A stretch of DNA of 59,304 nucleotides, taken from IMG/VR virus record IMGVR_UViG_3300037264_003947, positions 1 to 59,304 of that record. The stretch is one strand, 5' to 3'. Numbering within the stretch: position 1 is the stretch's first letter; each line of letters opens with the position of its first letter. This stretch comes from a virus. This document shows, piece after piece, positions 2,723-52,764 of the stretch. The position numbers and the translations under genes are program-made. The notes below the pieces were generated by a model. That model had not been told where the DNA came from, made no database searches, and worked only from the letters and a program-made list of their open reading frames with translations.

Positions 2723-3280
2723 TTATTTGCCTCCTGGTAGAAGGTCTTTTATGTTGTACTCTTCCACTAATTTCATATTTAATTTGTTCCATTTTATTTG
2801 ATTATCTTTTCTTTCTAATGGACGAAGATTTCTTAAATCACAACATTTTTTAAATTCTTTTTCATTGTTTAAATCATACAAAGAAATTGGAATAATGTGA
2901 TCTATAGTCCAAAATTTACCGCAATTGTTCCAACTCATTTTTTCATCAAATTGTTTTTCTAAACATAGTTTGAGATTTTCAAGAGAAAAATTCATGATGC
3001 TACTATTATATCCATTTTTTATCTTTATTCTAGCTCTCATTAATTTTTTTAATTTAAAATTTATGTCTTCTCTATATTGTTTTCTTTCACGTTCTCTTAT
3101 TTTTTCTCTATTGTTTTTATTCCATTTTTTATTTTTTTCATTTTCGTATATTCTATGTTTTTCTTTATTCTTTAATAACCATTTTTTCATGTTTAGTTTA
3201 CATCTATCACAAACTTTTGCTTCAACAGGACTAAAGTCAGACCTTTTATTTTTACAAGTGAAACAGATTTTTACTAACAT
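2723..3280 (-). CDS. HNH homing endonuclease
   Basis: The 185-residue protein starts with a zinc ribbon (CFTCKNK...CDRCK, residues 6-28), has a lysine-rich middle, and ends with an HNH core: WTIDHIIPISLYD followed by LRNLRPLERKDNQIKWNK. The DH pair and the Asn are the metal-binding and catalytic residues of the family. It is wedged between the portal and a damaged zinc-ribbon gene with one-base spacing, as expected of a freestanding mobile endonuclease invading the structural operon. Codon use is even more AT-rich than that of its neighbours. Confidence 0.85.
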   Translation of the reverse strand: MLVKICFTCKNKRSDFSPVEAKVCDRCKLNMKKWLLKNKEKHRIYENEKNKKWNKNNREKIRERERKQYREDINFKLKKLMRARIKIKNGYNSSIMNFSLENLKLCLEKQFDEKMSWNNCGKFWTIDHIIPISLYDLNNEKEFKKCCDLRNLRPLERKDNQIKWNKLNMKLVEEYNIKDLLPGGK

Positions 3281-3555
3281 TATAAGATACCTCTAGCTTT
3301 TGCCTTATTTTTATGCATAAGCAACATTTCAACTCTATCGTGAGCCTTATTTATAACATCATATTTTTTAGCAACATTTCTTCGTGCTACATTTCCAACC
3401 ATTTTCTTGTGGCTTCTCTCAAGTTCACCGCCACGAGAAAGTCCAGCCAGATGCCTAGCTAAATTTTTTTCCTGTTTTTGAGTAGGATCAGCTTTGTCAG
3501 CCAACCTTCTCATTCTTTTTATTATTTTTGCGTTGTGCTTGTTACAATACACCAT
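3280..3555 (-). CDS. Basic helical protein, probably the 3' part of a frameshifted zinc-ribbon gene
   Basis: The 91-residue frame begins MVYCNKHNAKIIKRMRR and is strongly basic and helical, suggesting nucleic-acid binding. Its first codons overlap, in another frame, the end of a short upstream reading frame (3522-3632) that carries CVSC and WC. Joining the two would give a continuous zinc ribbon followed by the basic helices, so one gene broken by an indel or a programmed frameshift near 3545 is likely. There is no clear ribosome site of its own, which also supports this. Confidence 0.5.
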   Translation of the reverse strand: MVYCNKHNAKIIKRMRRLADKADPTQKQEKNLARHLAGLSRGGELERSHKKMVGNVARRNVAKKYDVINKAHDRVEMLLMHKNKAKARGIL

Positions 3556-3632
3556 TGCTTTTTACCTGTTTTATCTTTTCCAAAAAATTTTGTGTCCTTT
3601 TCTATATTACAACTAACGCAAATTTTAACCAT
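3522..3632 (-). CDS. Short zinc-ribbon reading frame, 5' part of a frameshifted gene
   Basis: This 36-residue frame (start at 3632) reads MVKICVSCNIEKDTKFFGKD and continues to QWC before running into a stop. The layout CxxC-x(n)-F-x(n)-WC matches the N-terminal zinc ribbons of the HNH proteins in this window, whose second pair is WCxxC. Here the second pair (YCNKH) lies in the overlapping downstream frame. The gene is therefore either disrupted or translated by frameshifting. Confidence 0.45.
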   Translation of the reverse strand: MVKICVSCNIEKDTKFFGKDKTGKKQWCIVTSTTQK

Positions 3633-3633
3633 T

Positions 3634-4110
3634 TTATTCTCTATCAACGTCTGTCTTATGGAAATCTAAAATTTCTTTAAAGTAAGGATGCTTTTCATAA
3701 TTTGCGGATTTTCCTTTTCTCATTTCGCCTTCAGTATATTTAGCAATTCTCATATGTTCTTTCACTAACTCGTAAATAAACTCTTTATTCTCAAAAGGAA
3801 ATAAATGAAGATATTTGTCTAAATACTTCATTGATTCTTTATCGTGTCCATAATGATGAACGCCAGTTTCATTTTCTGATTCTGTATCAAGTTTTCCTAA
3901 GTCGTGAAATATTGCTGCTATGGCCCAGTCTTTTCCTCTACTTTTTATTTTATCAAACACTATTTTAAGATGGTTATAAACAGAACCTTCTGGGTGCCAT
4001 TTAGGATTTTGTTTAGATCTTCTCAACTTCTCCACTATTTCTTTAGGAAGTTTGCTTATGTATTCTTCGAAGTTTAAAGTTTGTGCTTCTATCAATTCAG
4101 TTATTTTCAT
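3634..4110 (-). CDS. HD-domain phosphohydrolase with capsid-targeting-like N-terminus
   Basis: The 158-residue protein carries an HD-superfamily core: H at VYNHLKIV, the pair HD in IFHDLGKLD, then HH and H at GVHHYGHDKES, and further down KEHMRIAKY. Such proteins hydrolyse phosphate esters of nucleotides using one or two metal ions; the substrate cannot be read from the sequence. The N-terminus MKITELIEAQ looks like a T4 capsid-targeting propeptide with a possible prohead-protease site after LIE. Its stop overlaps the neighbouring gene start by four bases, so the two are co-translated. Confidence 0.7.
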   Translation of the reverse strand: MKITELIEAQTLNFEEYISKLPKEIVEKLRRSKQNPKWHPEGSVYNHLKIVFDKIKSRGKDWAIAAIFHDLGKLDTESENETGVHHYGHDKESMKYLDKYLHLFPFENKEFIYELVKEHMRIAKYTEGEMRKGKSANYEKHPYFKEILDFHKTDVDRE

Positions 4111-4607
4111 TTCTTATTCACTAGTTTATTATACATAGGTGTTGTTAAAATATATCTATCTAGCCAAGACCAATCGTGGGAAGCGTAATCCTTCTTCCTG
4201 TCTTCTTCCTTACTTCTCATTACATATTCTACATTATGCGCTTCTACCATAGTCCATTTTCCATTTACTTTTTTTGCAATGCCGTGGATAAAAATAGCCT
4301 CAGTTTGTTTTACTCCAAGTTTTTTATCTAAATCTTCGTGCATAATCCAAGGACTAAAAACATAAACTTTTTTATTTGCAGTTGCCGTAAATCTTATATA
4401 CTTTTCTTTTTTGGACTTCTGATACTTCATCCAAGCGCCGCCTGGATCGTTTGCTCCACCACCTTCATGTGGCTCAACAATTTCTGCAACTTCATCCATT
4501 TCTGATTCAGTGGGATTGACATAAATTTCTTTATAGTCCCTTCCCATATGTTTTATTCCATCCAGAAATTCTTCGAAGAGTTTATCTATCTTTTTCCTAT
4601 TAGCCAT
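4107..4607 (-). CDS. Unknown protein, paralogue of the 22996-23655 gene
   Basis: The 166-residue protein contains VNPTESEMDEVAEI, KKVYVFSPWIMH and DWSWLDRYI. The same three landmarks occur in order in the protein at 22996-23655 (ENPTKEQMDEIAG, KKVVVFPFGVPY, DWMWLDKYI). The two are therefore paralogues within one phage. The fold looks alpha/beta with many aromatic residues. It overlaps the terminase gene by 22 bases and the HD gene by four. No function is recognised. Confidence 0.65.
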   Translation of the reverse strand: MANRKKIDKLFEEFLDGIKHMGRDYKEIYVNPTESEMDEVAEIVEPHEGGGANDPGGAWMKYQKSKKEKYIRFTATANKKVYVFSPWIMHEDLDKKLGVKQTEAIFIHGIAKKVNGKWTMVEAHNVEYVMRSKEEDRKKDYASHDWSWLDRYILTTPMYNKLVNKK

Positions 4608-31443: not shown

Positions 31444-34125
31444 ATGTTTAGAGTATGGTCCGCTGGCGATGACTTAAAAAATGAAACCTTTTCCTCTGCT
31501 GATACAGCTAGACCTGGATATTATCTAGGTATTGAAGGATTAGAAGTAAGAGATAATGTCAGTAAGGTAGATCTAGGCAGACCCTTAAGAAATATTTGGG
31601 AAAATACACAACACTTAAGCGATTTTGATGATAGAATGTTCTATCATGTCAAGGGTGATAGTTCTGGCGTATTTAATAGATCGTTAGTCAATGGATTTTC
31701 TATCGGTGATACTGATATAGTAACCGTAACGGTAAATCCTGGAACTGGTGATACTATTAGGTTCTATGCTCGTCTAGGACCTGGAATTGCTTATCATAAT
31801 AAACATGTAGTTGTCAATAGACCTCAAACTCAAATAGCAGAAAGACAAATATCTAAAATACTTAAGCTTGATGACTGGAAAGATGAAGGAGTATCAATTA
31901 GATACTTCTTTAATACTGACATGTTTCAAGCGAAAATAACAAAGAGAAATACCAACGCCGTTCCAATAAGTTATTACTTTGTAGATCCTGCCTTCTATGG
32001 TGACAGCACAAAGTGGGGCGATAGTAGAGTTGGTTATTCTTCTTCATTAAAACTATTCGAAGCAATATACAATACCGCAATTTTCACTTCTAGCTGTAGG
32101 ACTTCATTAGGCGATAGCATCGACTTAATACAATGCGAACCAGTAGTAAACTTTAAGAAATCACAAATAGTTTTTGCTGGTGACACAATTTTCTGGGTAG
32201 TTAAGGCAAATGGAAGCGTGGTAGGAACAACTACTTTCCCCGCTACTACAGACCTTTGCCTATGGGCCACAAAAGTAAATATTACGGCACAAGCAGGAAC
32301 TACAGTAAATAAGGGTGACTCTAGAAAATTCATTCCTTTATACCACGATTTCGGTCAGCACCTATTCCTAAATGTTCCTAAAGAATGGGCAGATACAAAT
32401 ACTTTAAGTATGACTAGACCTTGGAGTGATACAAGAAATCACCCCTATACTTTTGTAACTAATAGAAATAGTTTCATTGTATTCTTAAGACAAACTGCTG
32501 GAGTTGGAACTAGTCCAATACTAGGATGGACAGAAGACAATGCCGTAGGAGTCACTCCAGCTAGATCTGGAGTTTTCTATGGAAACAAAGATTTAATCAT
32601 AAGTAGATGGACTAACGCAGGAGATACTCTAGGTAGAGCTTGGGCTTCTGTAATGAGTATGTCTGGTGACTCTTGGACTTTCTATGGCGATAAAGGCTTA
32701 AGAAATGGTAGTTTTTTTCCAATGGCTTCTTCAGGGCAAAATCTTGGAAGACCTTCAAATACTTGGAGAGTTTGGGGAGACTCTGGAATATTTACTAGAA
32801 GTTTAAGTATAGGCGATACTGTTTTTGTAAATACTGTTAAATCTAATAAATTAATAGGTGATACTGTTTTTGTAAATACTGTTAAAGCATTAAAGTTTGT
32901 AGGTGATACTGTTTTTGTAAATACTGTTAAAGCATTAAAGTTTGTAGGTGATACTGTTTTTGTAAATACTGTTAAAGCATTAAAGTTTGTAGGTGATACT
33001 GTTTTTGTAAATACTGTTAAATCTAATAAATTAATAGGTGATACTGTTTTTGTAAATACTGTTAAATCTAATAAATTAATAGGTGATACTGCTTTTGTAA
33101 ATACTGTTGCTGTTAAAAAACATTTAGCAGCAGACACTATCTTTAATTATGGAGGAGTTTATAGTACTTTTGCTGGACATAAATTAATAGGTGACACTGC
33201 TTTTGTAAATACTGTTAAAGCAAAGAAACTTATAAGCGATAGCATATTTACTGGAACATTAAAGACCGCCGGTTCTACAAATATAGGTACCACTTTAAAT
33301 GTAACAGGTCATACTATTTTAAATACTTTGGGGACAACAGGTGCTGCCACTGTTGGAACTACTTTAGGAGTAACAGGAGCTACTATACTTAGCTCTACTT
33401 TAGCTGTAAATGGTGATGAACTCACTAGTACATCAGCTTCATTTAATTTATTGAATTCTCCTACTACTATAACTATTGGATCTACCACTGGAACTACAAC
33501 TATAAGATCTAAAAGAACAGTTGTTGGAACTACTGATGGTGACTCCTTTATAGTAAGAGGTGGAATAGTAAGACTTGGTAGCGGTGACTCTAACGGAATA
33601 TTCATGTTAAGCAGAAGAATATCTGCTGGTGATACTGGAAAGAGAATAACTACTGCTGGTGGTGATACAGGCATTCTATTTAGAGGTTCTATAAACGCTT
33701 ATAAAGTTTATAACGCAGTATGGAATGACTACGCAGAAGCTTTCACCTTTGATCCAAAAGAAAAACATCTAGTAGCTGGATATGTTTATGCACAAGGTCC
33801 AGATGGAGCAGTAAGGGCTAGAAGAAGAGCAGATAAAGCAACACTAGGAGTTTTCTCTGATACTTACGCAATGCTACTTGGTTCTAGAGGTTGTATATCA
33901 GAAGATAAGAATGGAACTAAAATACCTATAGCTCTAGCTGGTAAGGTTCAAATTTATGTTAGAGGAAAATTAGGTATAGGCGATTTGTTAGTTACTGATA
34001 AAAATGGATTTGGTGTAAAGGCCAACTTCTTTGAGCGAATATTTAAATCAGATAGAATACTTGGTAAAGTTCTAGAAAATCATAATGGGAATAATCCTTC
34101 TAGAATATGGATGTTAGTGAGGTAA
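31444..34125 (+). CDS. Tail fibre protein
   Basis: The 893-residue protein is beta-rich throughout. About residues 455-600 hold a run of 15-residue repeats around GDTVFVNTVK, followed by fibre-like stretches (NIGTTLNVTGHTILNTLGTT) and a C-terminal domain with NAVWNDYAEAF, the WNDYAE element found in many phage fibre ends related to Peptidase_G2-type autoproteolytic domains. It contains 23 Gly-Asp-Ser/Thr triplets. It heads the host-recognition cluster. The receptor is unknown. Confidence 0.8.
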   Translation: MFRVWSAGDDLKNETFSSADTARPGYYLGIEGLEVRDNVSKVDLGRPLRNIWENTQHLSDFDDRMFYHVKGDSSGVFNRSLVNGFSIGDTDIVTVTVNPGTGDTIRFYARLGPGIAYHNKHVVVNRPQTQIAERQISKILKLDDWKDEGVSIRYFFNTDMFQAKITKRNTNAVPISYYFVDPAFYGDSTKWGDSRVGYSSSLKLFEAIYNTAIFTSSCRTSLGDSIDLIQCEPVVNFKKSQIVFAGDTIFWVVKANGSVVGTTTFPATTDLCLWATKVNITAQAGTTVNKGDSRKFIPLYHDFGQHLFLNVPKEWADTNTLSMTRPWSDTRNHPYTFVTNRNSFIVFLRQTAGVGTSPILGWTEDNAVGVTPARSGVFYGNKDLIISRWTNAGDTLGRAWASVMSMSGDSWTFYGDKGLRNGSFFPMASSGQNLGRPSNTWRVWGDSGIFTRSLSIGDTVFVNTVKSNKLIGDTVFVNTVKALKFVGDTVFVNTVKALKFVGDTVFVNTVKALKFVGDTVFVNTVKSNKLIGDTVFVNTVKSNKLIGDTAFVNTVAVKKHLAADTIFNYGGVYSTFAGHKLIGDTAFVNTVKAKKLISDSIFTGTLKTAGSTNIGTTLNVTGHTILNTLGTTGAATVGTTLGVTGATILSSTLAVNGDELTSTSASFNLLNSPTTITIGSTTGTTTIRSKRTVVGTTDGDSFIVRGGIVRLGSGDSNGIFMLSRRISAGDTGKRITTAGGDTGILFRGSINAYKVYNAVWNDYAEAFTFDPKEKHLVAGYVYAQGPDGAVRARRRADKATLGVFSDTYAMLLGSRGCISEDKNGTKIPIALAGKVQIYVRGKLGIGDLLVTDKNGFGVKANFFERIFKSDRILGKVLENHNGNNPSRIWMLVR
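32812..33115 (+). repeat. 45-base tandem repeats in the tail fibre gene
   Basis: Seven consecutive 45-base units encode GDTVFVNTVK followed by either SNKLI or ALKFV, in the order SNKLI, ALKFV, ALKFV, ALKFV, SNKLI, SNKLI, then a degenerate unit; one more copy lies at 33190. Near-identical DNA makes copy number changes by recombination likely. Confidence 0.9.
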
Positions 34126-34782: not shown

Positions 34783-35151
34783 ATGGCATATACTTGGATA
34801 GGCTCAGTAGTTCGTGGTGCTAAAATAACAAATGAACTCGTATCAGAAATGAGAGTGCATGGGGATACTATTGCCACATGGAACTTAGCAAGAAATCCAT
34901 CTCCTGCTGCTTGTACCTCATATAATAAATGGGTATATCCATTAGCTTCTGGAGCAGATTCATATATAGCTACATTCAGCCAAATATTTGATGAGCTTCA
35001 ATATAACTTAAATCATTGGAGAGTAAATAACTGGTGCAGAGGATATGCTGTAACAGCTCATGTAACTCAACATAGTAGTAAGCAACTATCTTATAACGCT
35101 ACACAATATTCTCCAGCTTGCAGTCAATGTGTAGCACAAGGATCAGGTTAA
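34783..35151 (+). CDS. Octapeptide-repeat protein A, candidate radical SAM substrate
   Basis: The 122-residue protein has a non-repetitive N-terminal part (MAYTWIGSVVRGAKITNELV..., about residues 1-80) ending in a helix FDELQYNLNHW. Then come four eight-residue repeats: AVTAHVTQ, HSSKQLSY, NATQYSPA, CSQCVAQG. The first part looks like a virion-attachment or leader region, the second like a modifiable core. The same two-part plan is found in the next gene. Both lie immediately upstream of two radical SAM genes. Substrate status is inference. Confidence 0.6.
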   Translation: MAYTWIGSVVRGAKITNELVSEMRVHGDTIATWNLARNPSPAACTSYNKWVYPLASGADSYIATFSQIFDELQYNLNHWRVNNWCRGYAVTAHVTQHSSKQLSYNATQYSPACSQCVAQGSG

Positions 35152-35152
35152 T

Positions 35153-35788
35153 ATGGCCAAATTTACTTCAAGTCAGGGAAATTTTGCTTGGACCACAAGT
35201 GGTGCTCCTCCAACTGGAGTTGATAGATCTAGAACAGAATTTAGTGCCTATATAACTGAAGTCAAGGCCAATTTTGACTGGTTACAAGATAATTTAGAAA
35301 GTTGTTGGGCTGAAAAAGTTACTAGATGTGCTACTAGATATGATACTGTATTAACTACTGCTTATGGAGAAAGACATACAACTGCTAATGATACACAATA
35401 TGATGTTCAGCATACTACCAAGTATAGTTCTAATAATAGCACTTATTGCAGTCTTCAAAATGCTTCAATAAACTGGTCAATAAATAGCACAAATCACTCT
35501 GCAATTAATGGAACTGATCGAAATGTAGATAATGTCGTTGTAGATTCTTCAGTCTATTTGACCAACAATGCTCCGCAAAATGGTTCCGTCTACTCCCCTT
35601 ATAATGCCTCACGTTGTACATCTTATAATTCCACAATTCATTCTTCTGTAAGATCTACGCAATACGGTAGCAATTGTTCTACTGTACAAACATCAGATCA
35701 TACTGGAAGAAATGGCTCTAACTATACAGGAAATAATGCCACAAATCACAATAGTGTAAATGCTAATTTAGATTGTCAAGTCGGTTAA
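35153..35788 (+). CDS. Octapeptide-repeat protein B, candidate radical SAM substrate
   Basis: The 211-residue protein has a leader-like region (residues 1-54) ending WLQDNLESCWAE, then nearly nineteen eight-residue repeats to the C-terminus (residues 55-211, with one half-repeat at 175-178). The consensus is N-[ASG]-[ST]-x-[YHCR]-[ST]-x-x. Examples are NSTYCSLQ, NASINWSI, NGSVYSPY, NASRCTSY and NSTIHSSV. Cys, Tyr and His recur at position 5, and N-x-S/T at positions 1-3. The regular register would suit a beta-solenoid or a row of enzyme-made cross-links. No known family is recognised. Confidence 0.65.
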   Translation: MAKFTSSQGNFAWTTSGAPPTGVDRSRTEFSAYITEVKANFDWLQDNLESCWAEKVTRCATRYDTVLTTAYGERHTTANDTQYDVQHTTKYSSNNSTYCSLQNASINWSINSTNHSAINGTDRNVDNVVVDSSVYLTNNAPQNGSVYSPYNASRCTSYNSTIHSSVRSTQYGSNCSTVQTSDHTGRNGSNYTGNNATNHNSVNANLDCQVG

Positions 35789-35798
35789 AAGGAATGTT

Positions 35799-37154
35799 AT
35801 GCATCAATTTATCTCAACAGAAGTGCCGCAAGCGTCGGTTTGTAATTTAGATTGCGTTTATTGTTATATACCCAAAAATAAACAACTAACAAAAATACAT
35901 AAAAAATGGGCAGAAAAAATTAGAGATGGCACTCACAATGAAGTAATGTCAGAATATTTTAATGGCAACTTACAGGCAATTAGTTTCTGGGGTGGCGAAC
36001 CAACCCTAGGCATGAACGATTTACAAAGAATAGATGACTTACTTGATTTCAACAAAAATTTAACTAACCTTTCTACTTCTACAAATTTTGCTAGAATAGA
36101 AAATTTAGAATTTTTAATAAAAAAATTAGATGATTACCAAAAAAGAACTGGGAGAAATCTTCATTTGGGTATACAGGTTTCTTTAGATGGAACCAAAGAA
36201 AACACTGAAAAAAATAGGGGAAAAGGAACTTACGATAAAGTAGTAAGTAATTTGCTAAGACTAAAAGAATTCTCTAAAGAGATAAATTTTTTGAAAGTTA
36301 GAATTCACATAAAGGCTACCAATACAGCAGAAGATTACGAAGGGTTTGCCAAAAATCCTCAAACTTTAAAAGATTTCCTAGATTCATTTAACTATATAAA
36401 TAACCTAATTTTATCCACACCTTTTCCAGAAAACTGGGATGTGTCTTTAAAAACTCTACCTACTTTATCGTTGCCAGGAGATTATACTAAAGAAGATGGA
36501 GAAAATTTTTATAAGTATCATGTAGAGCTTAAAAAATTATTAGATACTGACTATAAGAATTATGTCCAAGAAGATGACTATATATTTAGATTCAGAACAC
36601 TGTGGGCAACTCAATATGAATTGAATAGAAATAATTTCATATTTCAATGCTCGGCAGGAAATTGCCAATTACCCATAGATCCAGAAGCAATGGTTCATAT
36701 GTGTCATGGAAGTTTCTGGTTCAACCAAGAAAATTATTTAGAAGAAACAGAAAATTCGGCAGCTGGATGGTGTGAGGGTGAAAGAATAGTAGATTTTGAT
36801 GCCGATAAATTCTGGAATGTAACTAAATCCACTATGGTAGAATATAGAGATAAGTATAATTTTGCTAGATCCAAATATACACTACGATGTTTTAATGACA
36901 TGATAGATCATTATTTAGCAATTACTTACTCAACCATTTTAATGCTAGCCAAAGCGGGACAGATTAGTGAAATTTACAAAGATGATGATTGGGCTAAAAT
37001 GTTTGCTTATTTTTTGGTATTAAAATCTGGTTGCTGGATGAATGGTTTATTAACAACTGGATCAATTTTTGTAATGCCTTTAAGCATATATAGAATATAT
37101 GGAAATGGGACTTTTGAATTTATAGTTAGAGATTTTGCAAGTAAAATACTATGA
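35799..37154 (+). CDS. Radical SAM enzyme 1
   Basis: The 451-residue enzyme has the cluster motif CNLDCVYC (about residues 16-23), FWGGEPTLG as the SAM-binding GGE element, and GIQVSLDG on a later strand, a classic TIM-barrel radical SAM core. A C-terminal region with CSAGNC and MCHG may bind an auxiliary iron-sulfur cluster. Such enzymes generate a 5'-deoxyadenosyl radical to modify peptides or proteins. Its start lies ten bases after the octapeptide-repeat gene and its end overlaps the next small gene, so substrate, maturases and helper are one unit. Confidence 0.85.
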   Translation: MHQFISTEVPQASVCNLDCVYCYIPKNKQLTKIHKKWAEKIRDGTHNEVMSEYFNGNLQAISFWGGEPTLGMNDLQRIDDLLDFNKNLTNLSTSTNFARIENLEFLIKKLDDYQKRTGRNLHLGIQVSLDGTKENTEKNRGKGTYDKVVSNLLRLKEFSKEINFLKVRIHIKATNTAEDYEGFAKNPQTLKDFLDSFNYINNLILSTPFPENWDVSLKTLPTLSLPGDYTKEDGENFYKYHVELKKLLDTDYKNYVQEDDYIFRFRTLWATQYELNRNNFIFQCSAGNCQLPIDPEAMVHMCHGSFWFNQENYLEETENSAAGWCEGERIVDFDADKFWNVTKSTMVEYRDKYNFARSKYTLRCFNDMIDHYLAITYSTILMLAKAGQISEIYKDDDWAKMFAYFLVLKSGCWMNGLLTTGSIFVMPLSIYRIYGNGTFEFIVRDFASKIL

Positions 37155-37357
37155 ACATAAAAGAAAAATTAATTGAAGACTGTAAAAATCTTATTATATT
37201 AAATAAACATCTAATGAATTTAATAGAGAATGAGTTAAGATTTAAGCCAGAGGTCGTTGATGCTCTTATAGAATTTTCAGATATTAGCAAAGAAGAAATG
37301 CCAAAACATACACTTCATAGCTTCTGGAAAGAAAGAATTACAAAACAAAAGATATGA
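37151..37357 (+). CDS. Small helical protein between the radical SAM genes
   Basis: The 68-residue acidic/basic helical product (MNIKEKLIEDCKNLIILNKH...) overlaps both neighbours by four bases. Small proteins in that position in RiPP loci are often recognition elements or precursors, but no RRE-type beta pattern is seen here. Function is unknown. Confidence 0.55.
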   Translation: MNIKEKLIEDCKNLIILNKHLMNLIENELRFKPEVVDALIEFSDISKEEMPKHTLHSFWKERITKQKI

Positions 37358-38685
37358 AAAAAGAATATATAGATCAAAATAGAGAGTTATTTAAAAACTT
37401 TCTAGAGGCAACTTTTTTTAAAAATTGGAGAGAGTCAAGTAGAGATAAAATTGCAATAGAAAATTATCAATCTGTAGAAATGTCTATAGGTTATAAATGC
37501 GATCTTCACTGCAAGTATTGTTATTATAGCAGATATGGTAAAGAACTCTATCAAAACAAACCAGTCAAGGCAAACGACATATTAAAAAATACTGAAAAGT
37601 TAATGAACTTTTTCGTTAAAAATAATATGTGTGTAAAAATAGAACTTTTTTCTGGAGATCCTTTTAATCTTCCTTATGTTTGGGATTATTTTGATATTAT
37701 TCTAAAGTATTCAGAGATGATGCCAATTGAAAAAAGGCCAGGGTATCTTTCTATACCTACAAATCTTTCTTTTTTACGATCAGAAGATGATACAAAATTA
37801 AATAAGATAAAAGATTATATATTAAAATTTGAGAAAATAGATGTTCCGTTTTATTTATCTGGTTCTGTTGATGGTCCTTTCATGGATAAGTTTAATAGAC
37901 CTTCGATAAAACAATTTAATTATGAAAAAAATTTTTATGATAAAGTATTAAAGTATGGGAAAGAGATTCGTTATGGTTATCATCCAATGATATACTCTAA
38001 CAATATAGAAAACTGGATAGAAAACTTTCTCTGGTTTTATTATTTAACAGAAAACCTATATTTACTAGAAGTAAGAAATGCTGAATGGACCGAAGAACAA
38101 TGTGTTCAAATTTATTATTTAATGAAGTTTATAATTCATTTTCTCTATAATGCAAAAGATAAAGATATTAAAAAAATGAACGAAATTTTGCAAGCAAATA
38201 AAGGATACAATATTTTGATGAGTCCTTTTATGAGAACTGGGAGAGGTTTGGGTTGCTCAATGCAAAGTACTTTAAATTTTCAAATGAATGACCTAACTAT
38301 TGTTCCTTGCCATAGAACTTCTTATAATGAATTCGTCGCTGGTAGCATGATCCTAAATGATGATGGATCTTATGATTTTAATCCAAAAAATGTGGAATAT
38401 TATTTAGCAGAACAATCAACTCAAATAAATAGGACTTATCCATGTGTTTCTTGCTCTGTCAATGAAATGTGTAGTGGTGGATGTTTGGGTTCAAATTATG
38501 AATCAACGGGAGATCCTTTCGTTCATCATCCAAATATGTGCAGAATGGAACATTATAAAATAGCGGGAATAATACATGGGTTTGATGAAATTGGTTTATT
38601 GGACGAATTTATGCGTGGCCAGACTGAAAGAAAAAAATCACAAGTTCAATATGTTTTAAAGACTTTTGGAGAAAAAAATGGATAA
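37354..38685 (+). CDS. Radical SAM/SPASM enzyme 2
   Basis: The 443-residue enzyme has CDLHCKYCYY (about residues 47-56), ELFSGDPFNL in place of GGEP, and YLSGSVDGPF. Its C-terminus carries a SPASM-type set of cysteines: CSMQ, VPCHRT, CVSCSVNEMCSGGC and NMC, enough for two auxiliary clusters. SPASM enzymes typically install thioether, carbon-carbon or epimerised residues in peptides. It differs clearly from the first enzyme, so the two may make different modifications. Confidence 0.85.
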   Translation: MKKEYIDQNRELFKNFLEATFFKNWRESSRDKIAIENYQSVEMSIGYKCDLHCKYCYYSRYGKELYQNKPVKANDILKNTEKLMNFFVKNNMCVKIELFSGDPFNLPYVWDYFDIILKYSEMMPIEKRPGYLSIPTNLSFLRSEDDTKLNKIKDYILKFEKIDVPFYLSGSVDGPFMDKFNRPSIKQFNYEKNFYDKVLKYGKEIRYGYHPMIYSNNIENWIENFLWFYYLTENLYLLEVRNAEWTEEQCVQIYYLMKFIIHFLYNAKDKDIKKMNEILQANKGYNILMSPFMRTGRGLGCSMQSTLNFQMNDLTIVPCHRTSYNEFVAGSMILNDDGSYDFNPKNVEYYLAEQSTQINRTYPCVSCSVNEMCSGGCLGSNYESTGDPFVHHPNMCRMEHYKIAGIIHGFDEIGLLDEFMRGQTERKKSQVQYVLKTFGEKNG

Positions 38686-39223
38686 AGATTTCAATTTAGT
38701 AGAAATAGAATTAAGAAAAGATTTTATTATAGTAGAACCTGATTTAGCATTTTTTACAAATGATAATAGTTTTCCAATGTTCTTAAAAGATTTCATGGAA
38801 AAATTATTTAACAACATTAAGGAAGCTATGGCCGATAAGGAAGTTTCCGAATTTAAAGATGTTAAAAATTGTTTGAAAAGATTTTTTCAATCAATTATTG
38901 ATGCCAGTAGTTTTAAATTGTTGGACTATAGAAGCATTTCCTTCTTAACCAATTTTTTACTTTTAATAAACAATTGGTTGTTAATGATAGAACAGGGAAA
39001 TCTTTTGCCATTTTTTGATTTATCTAAAGAAGAAGTTGATAGTCTCAAAAAAACTAGCGAAGATTTAACGGAAATAATTACTTTAAATTTGGATGTAGAA
39101 AATTTACACAATTTAACAAATAGATTAATGAAAAAAGCAGAACAAATTCTAGCATCAGTTCCATCTAACTTCAAAATAAGCGAACATTTTTTCAACGTCT
39201 TAAAGAAAGAAATAACTAAATGA
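38678..39223 (+). CDS. Unknown helical protein of the radical SAM cluster
   Basis: ATG 38678 with TTTGGAG upstream is preferred over a TTG at 38666. The 181-residue product is entirely helical (KDFMEKLFNNIKEAM, SFLTNFLLLINNWLLMIEQ). It overlaps the radical SAM gene by eight bases and the next gene by four. No family is recognised; a partner protein is plausible. Confidence 0.55.
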   Translation: MDKDFNLVEIELRKDFIIVEPDLAFFTNDNSFPMFLKDFMEKLFNNIKEAMADKEVSEFKDVKNCLKRFFQSIIDASSFKLLDYRSISFLTNFLLLINNWLLMIEQGNLLPFFDLSKEEVDSLKKTSEDLTEIITLNLDVENLHNLTNRLMKKAEQILASVPSNFKISEHFFNVLKKEITK

Positions 39224-40056
39224 CATTTATAAATAAAGAAAAGTTGCCAACAACAAATTTTTTATATTCCCTTAAGCATTTAGCAATTCCTAATAAAGTC
39301 ATTTTGACTAAATTGGAAATTAAAGATGTTGAATCATTAGAGACGCTAATATTTTTTAATCCTAATTACGATGATTTAAAATTAACTGAAGATCTAAACA
39401 AAAAAATAATATTGTTTTTTTCTTATATTGATGAAGAACTACTTCCACTTCTAGGACATCAGAACATATTAAAGATAATAGTTTTTGATGATTTGGATGC
39501 TTTATTTCTTACAAAAAATCATATAAGAAATTTTGAATTGGCCTTTCCTTCTATAGATAAAATAGATACTACAGATGTGTATAACTATTTTTCTATCTTT
39601 AATGATATACAAGATGTTGATGTAAGAAAAATAATTGAAGCCAAAGCATTATGTAATGTAAGTTATTTTGGTTATAAACATATAAACAAGACACTAGACT
39701 TCAATAAGTTAAAAGACATAATGTATGCAGGAATTAAGATAGTTCCTTTTGCAATATTTGACATGCACGAAAAAATAGCTAGATTTCAATATACAATAGA
39801 TTTTTCAAACAAGCATTTCCCAATAGTTTCATTTTACTCTGCTCTTTGCAACAAAATTCCAATCCATTATGGTAATAGATACTTTAAATGGATGGCTTCT
39901 GAAACTCAAAATCCATCTGCAGAAACTCTTGGCAAGATATTAGCAGATGAGAATTTTAGAAAAAACATCATAGAAAAACAACAAGCAAGAATGTCAGATG
40001 TTTTTAATAATAGACGAAAAGTGGAAGAAATTTTAAATGAAATTAAACCAATGTAA
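39220..40056 (+). CDS. Glycosyltransferase-like protein 1
   Basis: The 278-residue alpha/beta protein has a Rossmann-like alternation and a C-terminal part with PIHYGNRYFKWMAS and AETLGKILADENFRKNIIEK, like the final helix of family-4-type glycosyltransferases. The donor-site motif is weak, so this is a tentative call based on shape and the neighbouring gene. It is translationally coupled on both sides. Confidence 0.4.
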   Translation: MTFINKEKLPTTNFLYSLKHLAIPNKVILTKLEIKDVESLETLIFFNPNYDDLKLTEDLNKKIILFFSYIDEELLPLLGHQNILKIIVFDDLDALFLTKNHIRNFELAFPSIDKIDTTDVYNYFSIFNDIQDVDVRKIIEAKALCNVSYFGYKHINKTLDFNKLKDIMYAGIKIVPFAIFDMHEKIARFQYTIDFSNKHFPIVSFYSALCNKIPIHYGNRYFKWMASETQNPSAETLGKILADENFRKNIIEKQQARMSDVFNNRRKVEEILNEIKPM

Positions 40057-40879
40057 CGGACCAGTAAATAAATACTACGAACAATTATTAAATAATGGAA
40101 TCATTAAAGAAAGCGATAATGTTTTAGTAGATCCGCGTAACGAAAAGGAATTTCCTGATATTAACGATTTAGTTATCTTACAACAAGGAGATCTTTCTTG
40201 GAATGTAAAAAATTTTTCAAAAATAAAGTATATATTTACTCCATCTCTTTATCTATATGAAAAATATAGTTATAGTAAAAAAATATTTTTAATACCTTTT
40301 GCAATTGAGCCTGAATATAAAAAAATAAGTAAATGGTCTGATAGAGAAAACGCCCTTTATTATCACGGAAGAATAATTTCTGAAAAATTAGGAATAATTG
40401 GCTTAACGAAATTATGTTCAGAAGGAATAAAAATAGTTCTACGAGGACCAATTTGTAAAGAATACTGGACCGATAAAGATATTGAGCGTCCAGAATTTAT
40501 TTCCTATAAAGAAAAAGTCTCTAAACTCAATATAGAATTTTTACCACCCACAGATGATAAAGAAGTAATAATAAACGATCTTAACAAATACAAATTTTAT
40601 TTCACTCTATCTAATGGGGAATGCTTTAATCTCGCTCTACAAGAAGCAATAGCTTGCGGAACCATACCTTTAGTAAAACCTAATTTTGCGTATTGGTGGG
40701 CAGAACACTTAATACTACAATTTGAAAATACCAATGAACTAATTAAAAAATTCAATGGTCTAAAAGATATGGACATGGACGAATATTCTAGTCTACTTTC
40801 AAAAGAATTGCATAAAAGATTTAATTATGAATCTTTAATTAAATCGTATGAGTATCAGAAAAAAGAATTATTTCCTTAA
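40037..40879 (+). CDS. Glycosyltransferase-like protein 2 (GT-B type)
   Basis: The 280-residue protein resembles the C-terminal half of GT-B enzymes: FLIPFAIEPEYKK, ALYYHGRIISEKLGI at the start of the second Rossmann fold, and NGECFNLALQEAIACGTIPLV with the donor-binding E-x(7)-E-like element. The acceptor half is short. It may add sugar to the repeat proteins or fibre. The gene ends inside the convergent cysteine desulfurase gene (41-base overlap). Confidence 0.65.
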   Translation: MKLNQCNGPVNKYYEQLLNNGIIKESDNVLVDPRNEKEFPDINDLVILQQGDLSWNVKNFSKIKYIFTPSLYLYEKYSYSKKIFLIPFAIEPEYKKISKWSDRENALYYHGRIISEKLGIIGLTKLCSEGIKIVLRGPICKEYWTDKDIERPEFISYKEKVSKLNIEFLPPTDDKEVIINDLNKYKFYFTLSNGECFNLALQEAIACGTIPLVKPNFAYWWAEHLILQFENTNELIKKFNGLKDMDMDEYSSLLSKELHKRFNYESLIKSYEYQKKELFP

Positions 40880-42116
40880 TTAAAATATCTATTTCTTCTA
40901 TCGTATTAAATCTATTTAAAGAAATTCTAACACTTTTAAATGCCTCTTCATCTGTAAGATCTAAAGCCTTTAATACATAAGAAGGTTTCTTTTCGTTAGC
41001 ATTACAGGCAGAACCAGCAGAAATAAAAATGCCTTTATTAGATAAATGTTCTATCAACTTCTCGCCATATATTTCTTTAAATGTTATAGAAGATGTATTT
41101 ACCAAACGAGGAGAGTTCTTACAATTAATTGTTGCTCCAAACTTAACTAATTGATCTTCCATATAGTTTCTTAAAGCTTCTATTTTTGGAAGATCGCTTT
41201 CTACCAAATTATCAATTGCCTCTCCCATTCCTACAATTAAAGGCATATTATAAGTTCCAGCCCTCTTATCCCATTCTTGATGCCCGCCTTGAATAAAAGA
41301 TTTAATTGTATTCATGTCTTTAATATATAAAACTGACACTCCAACAGGACCACCAAATTTATGAGCAGTAAAAGTAGCAAAATCAAGATTTCCTACCTTT
41401 ACATCTTTCATCTTTCCTAAACATTGGCACATATCAGAGTGAACTAGCGCATTAGGATTAGCAAACTTAATCTCATTAACATAATCATGAATAGGAAGTA
41501 TGCTACCAGTTTCATTATTGGCAGTCATTATACTTACTAGGCAAGGTTCTTTTGAAAGTTCTATGACTTTTTCTAGATCTATATAGCCGTTGTTAAATAC
41601 ACCTACTTCAAAAGCATTCATTTTTTTGGAAGAATTAATGATGCAACTATGTTCAATAGAACTTATAATGACCTTATTAAAAGTTCCTTTAATTACCATG
41701 TTATTAGATTCTGATCCAGAAGCGGTAAAAATAAGATTAGATGGTTTACAACCAATCTTATTTGCTATTTTAGCTCTAGCTTGTTCTAGATAAGCTCTAG
41801 TTCTTTCTCCAGCTTCATGTCTAGAAGAAGGGTTGCCAACTACATCATACATTTCTCTTATTTTATTTGCCACTTTAGGCAACACTGGATGCGTAGCATT
41901 GTTGTCTAAATAAATAAATTGATTAAATTTCTTACTAGTTAGCTCGTGCATTCTTTCACTTTTAGGTGATGGACATAAAGGACTATAAGAAGCATAATCA
42001 GAACTACAAGAAGAAAGCATTTCTTTTCTAATTTCTTCTCTTATTTTTTCTCTATCAAAATCTAAAATTGGTAAATCAATTTTTTTTGTTTCTTGTGTTT
42101 GCCATTCATATCTCAT
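40839..42116 (-). CDS. Cysteine desulfurase, NifS/IscS-like
   Basis: The 425-residue PLP enzyme converts cysteine to alanine and enzyme-bound persulfide. Visible are YLDNNATHPV, HEAGERTR, SGSESNN, HSDMCQ, the PLP lysine in TAHKFGGP, and the catalytic Cys in SAGSACNANE. An N-terminal extension of about 65 residues (with SCSSDYASYSPLCPSPKS) is not part of the usual fold. Transcribed toward the radical SAM genes, it may supply sulfur for their clusters or for tRNA thiolation. It is rare in phages. Confidence 0.88.
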   Translation of the reverse strand: MRYEWQTQETKKIDLPILDFDREKIREEIRKEMLSSCSSDYASYSPLCPSPKSERMHELTSKKFNQFIYLDNNATHPVLPKVANKIREMYDVVGNPSSRHEAGERTRAYLEQARAKIANKIGCKPSNLIFTASGSESNNMVIKGTFNKVIISSIEHSCIINSSKKMNAFEVGVFNNGYIDLEKVIELSKEPCLVSIMTANNETGSILPIHDYVNEIKFANPNALVHSDMCQCLGKMKDVKVGNLDFATFTAHKFGGPVGVSVLYIKDMNTIKSFIQGGHQEWDKRAGTYNMPLIVGMGEAIDNLVESDLPKIEALRNYMEDQLVKFGATINCKNSPRLVNTSSITFKEIYGEKLIEHLSNKGIFISAGSACNANEKKPSYVLKALDLTDEEAFKSVRISLNRFNTIEEIDILIKEIILFSDTHTI

Positions 42117-47979: not shown

Positions 47980-47997
47980 TAGACCTATAAAGGTCTA
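47980..47997 (-). terminator. Hairpin at the end of the large baseplate gene
   Basis: TAGACC/GGTCTA with loop TATAAA spans the stop codon of the 47995 gene. The core GACCTATAAAGGT recurs at 45773-45785. It is terminator-like but with only an AT-rich tail. Confidence 0.4.
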
Positions 47998-50900
47998 ACC
48001 TTTTCTAGTTTCTGTCATTTGGAACTTGTCGAACATGAATTTATACTTTGGTTCATTTAGCGTCCAAGAACCACCATTTAATCTCATTGCTCCTTTATCG
48101 CTGTCTCCATAACCTCCAAGCAAAACTGGACTTAAAATTATGGTTGTCAAACCAGAGTCGCCAGCTATTCTAGCATGTCCTACGGAATCAGCGTAATAAG
48201 TTCCTTCTGTGCTATCACCTGTATTTATGATTTGAAGAGTGTCACCTTTTCTTAATCCAGTGAAAAGTCGTGATCCATCATAAATAACAATTCTAGAGAA
48301 TGTAGGAGCACCAGCATCTGAAGAATAATACTTAATTCTTCTTACTTGCTCGAAGTCCAAGTAACCTTTGAATAAATTGACTTGGTCTATTGCTGATATT
48401 GGTGGCTTTACAGTTATTTCTGTAGTATCTCCATACCAAGTTACAGCATCAACCATTCTGGTTACATTATTTACTTCGTGCTTAGTATCGTATAAAGTCA
48501 CATAATCATCTTTAACTAATCTACTAAACTTTCTAATGCTATCTCCTACTGCAAGAGTATCTCCATTGTTTACAAATCTTCTATGATCTAGAACTCTTAT
48601 CACTCCCTGACCTGAACCATTGTCTGCATCTATGTAGAAAACTTGTCCTGTGTTATATCCCCATGTAGTATCAGCATTTGCAGTTATGTTAAAATCTAAA
48701 TAATACTTTTCTTGTGGTCTTATATCCCAAGATCTTAATGGATGATTAGCTCCCAAAGTTATAAAATTTCCAATAACCTCTTCTACTGGATTATAAACAG
48801 GGACTATCCAAGCTCCATGTCTCCAATAAACTTTGCTATCAGCAATCTTACTATCACCCACTACAGCTATTCCAGAATTTACTGCTGATTTTCTATAATA
48901 AATTACCCAACTATCTCCAGTTGGATAAGTATCTGATCTATTAGTAGGCAAAGAGTAATGTCCAGGAGTTAAATAACGAACTGCATCAACAAAGAGGAAC
49001 ATATCTCTTCTTCTTAAGTTCCAGTTTTGAGCAGACAAACCACTATCGCCAGAAGTTTTTATAAGAACTCTCATGTTCTCATAAATTTGTTCATCGTTCC
49101 AACTTGGATTAACTGCTTTCAACTTAGAAAATACTGAAGTTGAAACCTCTGGTGCGGTGTATGATTCTCGTGTATCTGTGTGGTCTCCAGAAATCCAGTG
49201 TCCTGTTTTTCCTAACCTGGTAGGAACTGTCCAATAACTGCTATCTCCCCAATGGAAGTTATTAGTACTTCTAGTATTATAAAGTAAGGCATCAGTTATT
49301 AAACCCTCAAATACATAGTTCGTTGCGATATAAGGGGTGCTACCTATTGAAAGGAATGAGTTCTTGGCCCAAGTATTAGCAGTTCCAGCGTAAGTAGAAT
49401 CTCCGTGTTGAATAGTTCCATTTACATAAAACTCTGCATAGTTAGCTAACACATTCCAAGTTGCTTTTAAATGAGTCCATTCTCTTAAAGCAGCGTTAGT
49501 AGTATAAGCAGTTGTGCAAGAAACATTTCTATAGTTTGAAGCATCCTTCATTATGGAGAATAACCACTTATCTGTTGCCTGACTATATTTTAAAACTATA
49601 TGAACAGAGTCACCAGTGTAATCAGACATTACAAATTTATCTACTGTTGTATTATAGTTGAAGTAAGGTCTTACCCAGCACTCAAATGTTCCACTATCGC
49701 CAACAGTTAGAGGATATGCTAAAGAATCTCCTCCTCTTAAAGAAGGTTTAGCGAAAGGTCTAGCAAAATCTACACTCTTCTCTATTTGAACATTATAAAC
49801 TTTAAAAGTGTCTCCACTTGTTAAGTTGGAAGAGTTTCCCTTTATCCACCAACCAAAACCATTGTAGGTTGCTTTTGAAGAAACTGTTGGTTCAATGAAA
49901 GTCCAAGTGTTTGCATAAACTATATTGGTATCACCAAATAAAGTATCGCCCGCGCGCGAGAAGAAAGGAGTTACTTTTATATCTCTAGTGGATTTAATCC
50001 ACATAGTAGTATAGTAATGCCCTGTATCTCCAGGAGATTGGTTGGTATCCCCAATTATAGTTCTATAAATATCAGTTCCAGTGCTCCAAGAGAAAACTGA
50101 ATCTCCTATTGTGACATCATAAACTCTTTTATAATTAGTATTCCAAGCTGGCCAAACATTCCATTTAGAAGTATCGGCCAAGTTTTCTGTTGCTATTTTA
50201 TTTATTATAGGATTCCAGAAACCAGTAACACCTTTTCCAGTCCATCGAACTCTTGTATTTGTTACAGCAGTGCCATAGGTAGGTAATTCAAAAATTGGAT
50301 TAGAGTTTCTTGTTGGTATTTTATTATCAGATGTTTTATTCTTAGTATCATCTAATCTTATTAACTCACTTCCACCAGGAATAGTTCTGCTAGCCTCAAA
50401 CAAGTTTCCTTCCCAATATCTTCTATCTGGATAATAACCAGAATAAAGGTGCATCATTCTATCTGGGCCACCTATATAAAGCGTTCCACTTGGACTTGCT
50501 TTGCTGCTTCCGTGCATTCCTACATTCGTGTCACCTTTCAAGTAAATAGTTACTTGCTTTGTAGAAGGGTTATAGGCAGGGGCGACAATATCAGCAGCAA
50601 GATAATAAGTTCCATCATTGGCATCTGCACTAGTTCCAGCAATTGTAATTCTATCTATTACATATTTACCAACTAAACTATCGCCAGTTGGATTTAGAAG
50701 CTCCATTAAAGCAGTTTTTGCAGATCCAGAAGATATGTTATTTACTACTATTTTTCCTCTTGGATAAACCGTATCCCCAGCTCTTGGATAAACCGTATCC
50801 CCAGCTCTAGCATCAATAGATTGAATGGCATAACTTCTATTGTAAAAAGATAGTAAAGGCCCAGTCCTATTCATATAAATAGGATCTGCTCTAGGTTCAT

Positions 50901-52764
50901 CTAATAAAGTCCAGGCATATTTTGCTGTCTCTATGGAAGGTCTGGCGCTGAACAATATGTTTCTTTCTACGAAAATTGGTGACAAGAACTCTGCGTAGAA
51001 TTCTATAGCATCCAAGTCCGCTGCACTTAAGTCAGCTTCCTGTCCAGTTCCAAGTGAAGTAATACTATACTGAATTACATTTGTTTTAAAGTAAGTGTAA
51101 GTATCTCCTAGTGGAGCGAAAAGATGTTTTATCTCATATGCACTTAACTCTCTAGTATATAATCTAGCTTCCTCCATTGAACCAATCCATCCATAACCTT
51201 TTATTGGTGTTGAATAATTTCCCAAATAAATAAATCCAGTGGGAAAAGTAGTTGTAATGGTTGCCGTTTCATTTACAATTATTACAGAATTTTTATAAAA
51301 TACTACTTTTTTTGTATTGCTATTAAAAGTAAATGCATAGAAACGAAGCTTATCATCAAAAGTTCCTACTGGTATATCAATATCTTCGTGACTAGTATTT
51401 GTATTAAGCCTAATTATACCACTTCCATCTGTATTGGCCCAAATACAGAAACCATCTGTATTAGATCTTCCAAATGTAAATGCTACACAAGAATCTCCAG
51501 CTAGTTTAGTTGCCCAGAAAGTAAAAGTTAATTCTTTAATGCCGAATCTATAATCTGGATCAATTATGGATTTGACATATCTAATTACTTGTTTATCAGC
51601 AAAATATATTTGTAAAGTGCTTGAATAACCAGATCTAGTCCACTCTGTATTATAAAGAGTCATTCTATTTCTATTTGTTGATAGATCTAGGATAGTATCG
51701 CCAATTCCCTCATTGAAATTCCAATGTCCTTGTAATCCATAAGAAGAATTTATTGAAACATTTCCAGTTAAATGATAACTAGAGTAACCATTAGAATCTC
51801 CAGTGGTATAAGTAGAAGCCAATCTATCAAAAGCATTTAAATCCATTGGCTCTGTTATAGAATCCTTTGAAACAGAGTAAGTTCTAGACATTCCAGTTGG
51901 AATAGCATCCGTTGGTTTATCTGGTGTTAAATAAAATAAATAAGAATCCTTATTTGTAGATGCGGTATAAAGATTGGCATTTATTGAAGTATCGCCAAAC
52001 CTTCTGTCAAACCAGAACTCTTGTGGTATTATTTCAAAACCAAGTAAGTTAAAGAATAGTTCGAACGAATAGTTTGTTCCTTTTATTCTATATATCTCAA
52101 TAATATTTTTAAGTAACTCTCTAAATGAAGAGTTAGTTAATAATTGATAGTCGTCTCTTTCATAACCTATTATTTGAGCTAGATAATTTAAATATTCCGT
52201 TGGTATTTTATCTAAATCTACTATGTTATAAAGATTATCTATAATCATAGTAAATTTATCAAACTCTCTCATGAAAGCTTCTTGGTACATTTTAGTTTTT
52301 TCTTCAGAGTTAATCATATCATAATCAAACTCTGGCAAGAAATACTTATATTTCTGTCTAAAGAAAGTTTTTACTGCAGAGTATTTAAAGGAATACACCA
52401 TCCAGTGAGCTAGAGCACTATCAGTAAAACCACCACTAGGAACAAAATATCCATAAGGAGTAGAGATTGGATTAATTACAATGGCCCAAATAGCACTACA
52501 TATTGTTGCGTTGCCAGAAAGATAGATGGCAGTGTTAGAAGTAAAAGTATCAACGTTTGCTAAATAATATTCTGCCAAAGCTGAGTAACCAGTTATCGTT
52601 AAATAGTAACTTCCAATATAGGTGTCACCAGTAAATTTTGGAGCTATATCACCAGAAGAATATTGTGGAACTAATGTATAACCCAGATTTTTAAATTCTG
52701 TATTTAAATCAGAGTCATTCTTTAGTATTGATACTATTTGATCTACTTCAAATTTTTCTGCCAT
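47995..52764 (-). CDS. Large baseplate protein: tail protein I-like with LamG domains
   Basis: The 1589-residue protein has a tail protein I-like region at about residues 160-245 (YNIVDLDKIPTEYLNYLAQI, FRELLKNIIEIYRIKGT). Two laminin-G/concanavalin-like domains follow: GLQGHWNFNEGIGDTILDLS with FIYLGNYSTP at about residues 350-550, and GTFECWVRPYFNYN at about residues 990-1130. These could bind surface sugars. It has 31 Gly-Asp-Ser/Thr triplets and an exact 24-base duplication (AGDTVYPR twice). It lies just downstream of the gp6-like gene, the place of a wedge or receptor-facing component. Confidence 0.75.
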   Translation of the reverse strand: MAEKFEVDQIVSILKNDSDLNTEFKNLGYTLVPQYSSGDIAPKFTGDTYIGSYYLTITGYSALAEYYLANVDTFTSNTAIYLSGNATICSAIWAIVINPISTPYGYFVPSGGFTDSALAHWMVYSFKYSAVKTFFRQKYKYFLPEFDYDMINSEEKTKMYQEAFMREFDKFTMIIDNLYNIVDLDKIPTEYLNYLAQIIGYERDDYQLLTNSSFRELLKNIIEIYRIKGTNYSFELFFNLLGFEIIPQEFWFDRRFGDTSINANLYTASTNKDSYLFYLTPDKPTDAIPTGMSRTYSVSKDSITEPMDLNAFDRLASTYTTGDSNGYSSYHLTGNVSINSSYGLQGHWNFNEGIGDTILDLSTNRNRMTLYNTEWTRSGYSSTLQIYFADKQVIRYVKSIIDPDYRFGIKELTFTFWATKLAGDSCVAFTFGRSNTDGFCIWANTDGSGIIRLNTNTSHEDIDIPVGTFDDKLRFYAFTFNSNTKKVVFYKNSVIIVNETATITTTFPTGFIYLGNYSTPIKGYGWIGSMEEARLYTRELSAYEIKHLFAPLGDTYTYFKTNVIQYSITSLGTGQEADLSAADLDAIEFYAEFLSPIFVERNILFSARPSIETAKYAWTLLDEPRADPIYMNRTGPLLSFYNRSYAIQSIDARAGDTVYPRAGDTVYPRGKIVVNNISSGSAKTALMELLNPTGDSLVGKYVIDRITIAGTSADANDGTYYLAADIVAPAYNPSTKQVTIYLKGDTNVGMHGSSKASPSGTLYIGGPDRMMHLYSGYYPDRRYWEGNLFEASRTIPGGSELIRLDDTKNKTSDNKIPTRNSNPIFELPTYGTAVTNTRVRWTGKGVTGFWNPIINKIATENLADTSKWNVWPAWNTNYKRVYDVTIGDSVFSWSTGTDIYRTIIGDTNQSPGDTGHYYTTMWIKSTRDIKVTPFFSRAGDTLFGDTNIVYANTWTFIEPTVSSKATYNGFGWWIKGNSSNLTSGDTFKVYNVQIEKSVDFARPFAKPSLRGGDSLAYPLTVGDSGTFECWVRPYFNYNTTVDKFVMSDYTGDSVHIVLKYSQATDKWLFSIMKDASNYRNVSCTTAYTTNAALREWTHLKATWNVLANYAEFYVNGTIQHGDSTYAGTANTWAKNSFLSIGSTPYIATNYVFEGLITDALLYNTRSTNNFHWGDSSYWTVPTRLGKTGHWISGDHTDTRESYTAPEVSTSVFSKLKAVNPSWNDEQIYENMRVLIKTSGDSGLSAQNWNLRRRDMFLFVDAVRYLTPGHYSLPTNRSDTYPTGDSWVIYYRKSAVNSGIAVVGDSKIADSKVYWRHGAWIVPVYNPVEEVIGNFITLGANHPLRSWDIRPQEKYYLDFNITANADTTWGYNTGQVFYIDADNGSGQGVIRVLDHRRFVNNGDTLAVGDSIRKFSRLVKDDYVTLYDTKHEVNNVTRMVDAVTWYGDTTEITVKPPISAIDQVNLFKGYLDFEQVRRIKYYSSDAGAPTFSRIVIYDGSRLFTGLRKGDTLQIINTGDSTEGTYYADSVGHARIAGDSGLTTIILSPVLLGGYGDSDKGAMRLNGGSWTLNEPKYKFMFDKFQMTETRKG
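50761..50808 (-). repeat. Exact 24-base tandem duplication
   Basis: Two identical 24-base copies (50761-50784 and 50785-50808) encode the repeated octapeptide AGDTVYPR in the baseplate gene, indicating very recent in-frame slippage. Confidence 0.95.

Follow-up and report, generated by a model that had tools for sequence, protein, structure and literature searches.

A conserved set of two radical SAM genes and short-period repeat proteins lies between tail and fibre genes in phages

The window, that is, the whole 59,304 bp IMG/VR record that we analysed, represents a T4-like phage with TerL (phrog_2), portal, gp6 wedge and ribonucleotide reductase genes. Downstream of a tail fibre gene, it encodes two repeat proteins, q and p, followed by two radical SAM (rSAM) enzymes, rSAM1 and rSAM2. 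In the order q, p, rSAM1, a 68 aa protein, rSAM2 and a 185 aa protein, neighbouring genes are 1-10 bp apart or overlap, and start and stop codons of the genes downstream of p mostly overlap. The features of the region are as follows.

31444-34125 (+), tail fibre; C-terminal domain HMM at 1.5e-18, phrog_19602 tail fiber at 0.0078
34783-35151 (+), repeat protein q, 122 aa; N-terminal domain W..V..G..I...EMR and six tetrads
35050-35121 (+), tetrads of q by the tetrad model: VTAH VTQH SSKQ LSYN ATQY SPAC
35153-35788 (+), repeat protein p, 211 aa, ATG start; residues 1-55 form a helical N-terminal domain, followed by 39 tetrads
35318-35785 (+), tetrad array of p, residues 56-211, [S/T/A/G]-[S/T]-x-[N/Y/H/C/R/D]
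35799-37154 (+), rSAM1, radical SAM enzyme; CxxxCxxC, PF04055 at 1.1e-9
37151-37357 (+), 68 aa helical-looking protein between the rSAM genes, overlapping each of them by ATGA; no family match
37354-38685 (+), rSAM2, radical SAM enzyme with SPASM domain; TIGR04085 at 28.7 bits, cutoff 27
38666-39223 (+), helical protein of 185 aa, the third member conserved across the close group of relatives; HMM built without the window at 3.3e-5
39220-40056 (+), 278 aa protein, translationally coupled, no family match; possibly glycosyltransferase-like
40037-40879 (+), 280 aa protein, weakly GT4-like glycosyltransferase; PF20706 at 0.0093 and PF00534 at 0.023, both below cutoff

Convergent with this cassette is a gene (40839-42116, -) for a NifS/IscS-type cysteine desulfurase, extended at its N-terminus by 60 residues, which could supply sulfur to Fe-S enzymes.

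The open reading frame of p had been singled out in an earlier note on this DNA and is present as described there. That note read it as a strict eight-residue repeat that runs to the C-terminus and slips by half a unit at residues 175-178. A strict short period does extend to the C-terminus, but its basic unit is four residues, not eight. Autocorrelation against shuffles gave z = 6.8 at lag 8 and z = 5.6 at lag 16, with lags 4, 12 and 20 likewise raised (z of 3.2, 4.1 and 4.7) and lags 2, 6, 10 and 14 depleted; in the close group of relatives described below, all repeat lags are multiples of four (8, 12, 16 or 20). Read in fours from residue 56 (VTRC ATRY DTVL TTAY GERH TTAN DTQY ... ANLD CQVG), p continues to its end in 39 consecutive tetrads, and since half an octad is one tetrad, the slip disappears in this register. 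Aromatic, Cys and His residues recur in register as the note had claimed: the fourth position is N/Y/H/C/R/D in 36 of the 39 tetrads (Cys in four of the 39), and the second is Ser/Thr in 27 of the 39. In the equivalent frame [S/T]-x-[NYHCRD]-[AGST], 18 of the 39 tetrads match at every position, whereas 20,000 shuffles averaged 3.1 such tetrads and never gave more than 8. When the composition of each tetrad position was held fixed, lag 8 still stood out (z = 2.3, P = 0.014), so an octad super-period exists, albeit a weak one.

At the DNA level, Tandem Repeats Finder reported one 28-base array, nothing comparable to the protein tetrads, and codons within the repeat are mixed. The pattern is thus maintained at the protein level and not by DNA duplication. 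An AlphaFold model of p contains a helix at residues 26-76 with moderate confidence, followed by a repeat with pLDDT of about 30 and no strands. This speaks against the suggestion that the repeat stacks as a solenoid with its aromatic and Cys residues on one face, although only weakly, given a shallow alignment and a model that covers neither a modified nor a trimeric state. An unmodified RiPP-like core should give such a structureless prediction, but so should a shallow alignment.

When the tetrad model was trained only on p, q scored 31, above a background maximum of about 24. A protein of 1589 aa elsewhere in the window (47995-52764, -), which has no PHROG match, contains a short tetrad-like stretch, ASTYTTGDSNGYSSYHLTGNVSINSSY, that scores 24. 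Proteins q and p also share their N-terminal domain: an HMM of this domain built without the window matches q at 1.2e-6 and p, weakly, at 0.0017, and, of all ORFs in the 15-kb segment of the window that was searched, gives q and p the top ranks. A MAFFT alignment of p to q paired the wrong parts and was discarded. As in RiPP precursors, the two proteins combine a conserved N-terminal region with a core that differs in period, and a maturase-like gene adjoins them.

Both enzymes have features of the radical SAM superfamily. In rSAM1, the cysteines of the CxxxCxxC motif (C15, C19 and C22) are invariant, as are three further cysteines (284, 302 and 412), and an AF2 model (pLDDT 84) fits radical SAM structures. 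Foldseek matched this model to viperin, DesII and the epimerase EpeE with TM scores of 0.2-0.4, too low for inferring chemistry. The SPASM domain of rSAM2 is recognised by TIGR04085, and its PF04055 match (7.4e-5) falls below the cutoff; of SPASM-like features, rSAM1 has only the three extra invariant cysteines. Neither enzyme reaches the cutoff of any NCBIfam maturase family. The nearest PHROG is phrog_1802, and the nearest sequences with solved structures are the ChlB rSAM domain, an anaerobic sulfatase-maturating enzyme, 5wgg (which we take to be CteB) and SkfB. These nearest enzymes mostly modify peptides or proteins.

We next determined how widely this gene set occurs. Single-sequence searches of IMG/VR and a phage collection retrieved nothing with p, an empty result that carries no information given the low-complexity filter of BLAST, and little with q, rSAM1, rSAM2 or TerL; 80 loci with TerL relatives yielded no cassette. 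We therefore searched IMG/VR with an rSAM1 alignment in which the motif CNLxCxYC was forced, its extra rows being scrambled copies that only steered the pattern. This recovered six full-length rSAM1 relatives, from which a genuine alignment was then made that brought in others, to at least 16 in phage contigs. In a genome scan, a Roseburia contig held the only full-length relative among the matches listed. An HMM of 16 relatives from which the window was left out finds the window rSAM1 at 1.8e-93, and one of five rSAM2 relatives, likewise without the window, finds the window rSAM2 at 3.6e-95.

The two radical SAM genes are always neighbours. In 19 of 19 loci (the window, 17 viral contigs and the Roseburia contig), rSAM2 is the next gene after rSAM1, with matches at E-values of 1e-98 or better even at loci outside model building. 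The earlier note had proposed checking whether other phages with such repeat proteins carry radical SAM neighbours, and its hunch that these matter is supported: a short-period polar repeat protein lies near 15 of 16 full-length rSAM1 relatives among the matches listed, compared with 15 of 74 partial rSAM matches (Fisher P = 4e-8, on loci that are not independent and with a polarity score devised here whose threshold is arbitrary). The sixteenth relative, L176, has an F/C-rich small-repeat protein instead. In L162, the top-scoring segment in this test was a collagen-like fibre, and tetrad proteins are present there too.

These loci include a close group and a second clade. In the close group (L114, L162-L168 and L171), most loci encode two tandem repeat proteins, which are fused into one ORF in L168 and degenerate in L167. 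The repeat proteins of these close relatives carry the same N-terminal domain as p and q. The 185 aa helical protein has orthologues after rSAM2 in eight other loci, that is, in the whole close group except L114, where the contig ends. The second clade (L115-L119, L172 and the Roseburia contig, L205) largely consists of gut-type phages, judging from its Roseburia member and our own reading. Two of its members, L116 and L118, encode YcaO. In both, this cyclodehydratase is directly 5' of the repeat protein and rSAM pair (L118:3114-4919; L116, about 3000-4600). Some cassette phages recode stop codons as sense, with in-frame TAG in L115, L116 and L172 and in-frame TGA in L164 and L165 inside cassette genes.

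The repeats themselves differ between the groups. Pooled tetrads of the close group read [T/S/G]-[Y/H/V/D]-[D/Y/N/H/K/R]-[S/G/A/T], and the second clade has triads, pentads, nonads or Cys tetrads. Repeat residues also vary strongly, being D-rich in L114, N-rich in the window and NSx triads in gut phages, so that a single chemistry for all is uncertain. In an rSAM1 tree, a moderately supported branch (63/79) separates the nine tetrad rows from the others, as would fit a repeat type that follows the rSAM1 enzyme; the window rSAM1 itself sits on a long branch without firm placement.

The cassette is found between tail and fibre genes, in numerous unrelated phages whose tail gene sets differ. The C-terminus of the window fibre is homologous to that of fibres directly 5' of the cassette in L114, L164 and L171; the HMM for this domain was built from these fibres and that of L203. 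Tail genes adjoin the cassette in L114 and L168, and in the Roseburia contig the repeat protein is followed by an endolysin-like gene and probable tail genes. A conserved fibre C-terminus and cassette amid differing tail genes suggest that the cassette is a mobile tail-associated module. The window fibre also contains an internal run of near-identical GDTVFVNTVKALKFV units, and L162 encodes a collagen-like (GYSGVSGYS) fibre a short distance 5' of the cassette (L162:3699-4484).

Taken together, p and q are probably substrates of a two-rSAM, RiPP-like maturation cassette that acts on tail-associated rods, a reading in which we have fair confidence. The arguments for their being substrates are the operon, the constancy of the rSAM pair, its association with repeat proteins, the shared N-terminal domain, the tail context and the precedent of the CXXX-repeat system. 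What we infer about the modification, its location in the virion and its function would then run as follows. In each protein, the helical domain at the N-terminus would serve recognition and/or attachment, and the tetrads would form a C-terminal rod. Guided by the shared domain, rSAM1 and rSAM2 would work along the rod, probably assisted by the small helical protein, altering every tetrad in its side chains or its backbone. Both cross-linking and epimerisation at the Tyr/His/Asn/Asp/Cys column are possible; Cys-dependent thioethers would not be general, as most tetrads lack Cys. The product would be a stiff, protease-resistant rod on the tail beside the fibre, where it may aid adsorption or protect the fibre.

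The same tail context, together with the lag-8 signal in p, would also suit a tail needle or fibre of the ordinary kind, unmodified and folded as a trimeric beta-helix in which each strand has eight residues, with the rSAM genes as unrelated neighbours. The earlier note could name no common repeat family with this period, but octad repeats are known from such structures, as VxGxxxxx in the needle protein gp5 of T4 (PMC4576200). The gp5 motif is absent from p. With that motif missing and a unit of four, we rejected p as a gp5-type triple beta-helix. The absence of predicted strands, the relatives with 3-, 5- and 9-residue repeats beside the same enzymes and the association with rSAM genes (P = 4e-8) further make an unmodified needle quite improbable. 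Alternatively, the repeats could mainly be a glycosylation scaffold whose Ser/Thr or Asn residues receive sugars from the GT-like proteins (39220-40879), while the rSAM enzymes act on these sugars or play a minor part. Ser/Thr occurs in most tetrads, and glycosyltransferases likewise follow the cassette in L162 and L171, with an apparent GT2-like ORF in L119. Yet ORF listings of L163, L166, L167 and L168 include no obvious glycosyltransferase, while rSAM1 and rSAM2 are present throughout. The N-x-S/T triplets, which had been likened to an N-glycosylation sequon, number 15 in p and 0-6 in most relatives; they are not conserved and are better seen as a by-product of the tetrad. A glycosylation scaffold is therefore unlikely, if slightly less so than the needle.

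The leader-plus-core look of p and q, the similarity to RiPP rSAM enzymes and the YcaO genes of L116 and L118 could also mean that p and q are precursors cleaved to give a released RiPP, either a bacteriocin or a signal, which the phage carries as cargo. Against this, Pfam and NCBIfam find no transporter or peptidase in the window cassette, the genes are positioned between tail and fibre genes, and the cores span 60-300 residues without a clear cleavage motif, so that we give this the lowest probability of the three.

Maturation of tail-associated p and q by the rSAM pair, our preferred reading, may extend beyond this phage. More tentatively, we lean towards a widespread class of tailed-phage virion rods with polar repeats of 3 to 9 residues, matured by dedicated rSAM pairs and sometimes YcaO. 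Secreted peptides and certain enzymes are known to undergo radical SAM maturation. In the literature we covered, which included few subscription papers or preprints, we found no paper on rSAM-modified phage tail proteins, and the chemical finishing of virus parts by such a gene set is apparently undescribed. If our reading is correct, tail proteins would be a new natural class of substrates for rSAM chemistry, and host recognition or virion toughness in phages would depend partly on exotic chemistry that is invisible to structure prediction. Were the wider class real, phage tails would display polymeric modified peptide rods beyond modelling from genomic sequence alone. There would also be a testable explanation for the unusually large number of rSAM genes that certain phages carry, among them Campylobacter phage CP220.

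Like the window, CP220 is T4-like, and it carries many rSAM genes of phrog_1802, the family nearest to rSAM1 and rSAM2; unlike in the window, no tetrad proteins lie near them. Apart from CP220, a search of 38 viral records found genes of the phrog_1802 type in only two, and none of these genes has tetrads nearby. The authors of the CP220 study treat the enzymes as metabolic and report CDCNYCT as the only genic repeat (PMC2853527). These heptads are encoded about 2 kb 5' of an rSAM gene. CNCNYCT or CDCNYCT heptad or octad proteins also occur near rSAM genes in L181:7896-9002, L189 (about 9248) and L148 (about 4963), the CP220 instance being L161:2933-4537. In L193 (about 3984), a His/Ser/Asp-rich repeat protein (HSDIEHSDSYSD...) lies near another phage radical SAM gene.

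Among characterised RiPP systems, PapB-type ranthipeptide maturases are among the best-scoring families for rSAM1 and rSAM2, at scores far below their cutoffs; PapB and CteB/SCIFF maturases need Cys donors, whereas most window tetrads lack Cys. The TVG/TvgB system has a four-residue repeat as in p, and its rSAM enzyme has been shown to install cyclopropylglycine in a precursor with TVGG repeats, giving a poly-cyclopropylglycine RiPP (PMC9062424). However, it uses one rSAM and a Val repeat residue, and its cluster is bacterial, with peptidase and transporters (PMC9062424). The His-Xaa-Ser system (HxsB/HxsC, TIGR03978/TIGR03977) likewise has two radical SAM enzymes and a protein made of short polar repeats. 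The window enzymes score 31.0 of 370 and 27.6 of 267.9 bits against it, and have tetrads and a phage tail location in place of HxS repeats.

Of the known kinds, the CXXX-repeat system (TIGR04115) comes closest: there too, a radical SAM maturase adjoins a protein in which one residue recurs at every fourth position. It has one enzyme and Cys at each fourth position, whereas the window has two enzymes and N/Y/H/C/R/D; rSAM1 scores 35.6 bits and rSAM2 19.9 bits where the cutoff is 350, so the window set does not belong to this system, but may by analogy work similarly. The system itself occurs in phage-like contigs, where the maturase and a Cys-every-four protein are encoded at these positions.

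L135:3756-7182, CXXX-repeat maturase and Cys-every-four protein
L188:5839-8246, CXXX-repeat maturase and Cys-every-four protein
L203:3561-6591, CXXX-repeat maturase, just under the cutoff, and Cys-every-four protein

The maturases of L135 and L188 exceed the cutoff (433-434 bits compared with 350). In L203, the fibre that shares its C-terminal domain with the window fibre stands directly 5' of the Cys-tetrad set. Phage tail modules thus seem to be a natural setting of the NCBIfam CXXX-repeat system.
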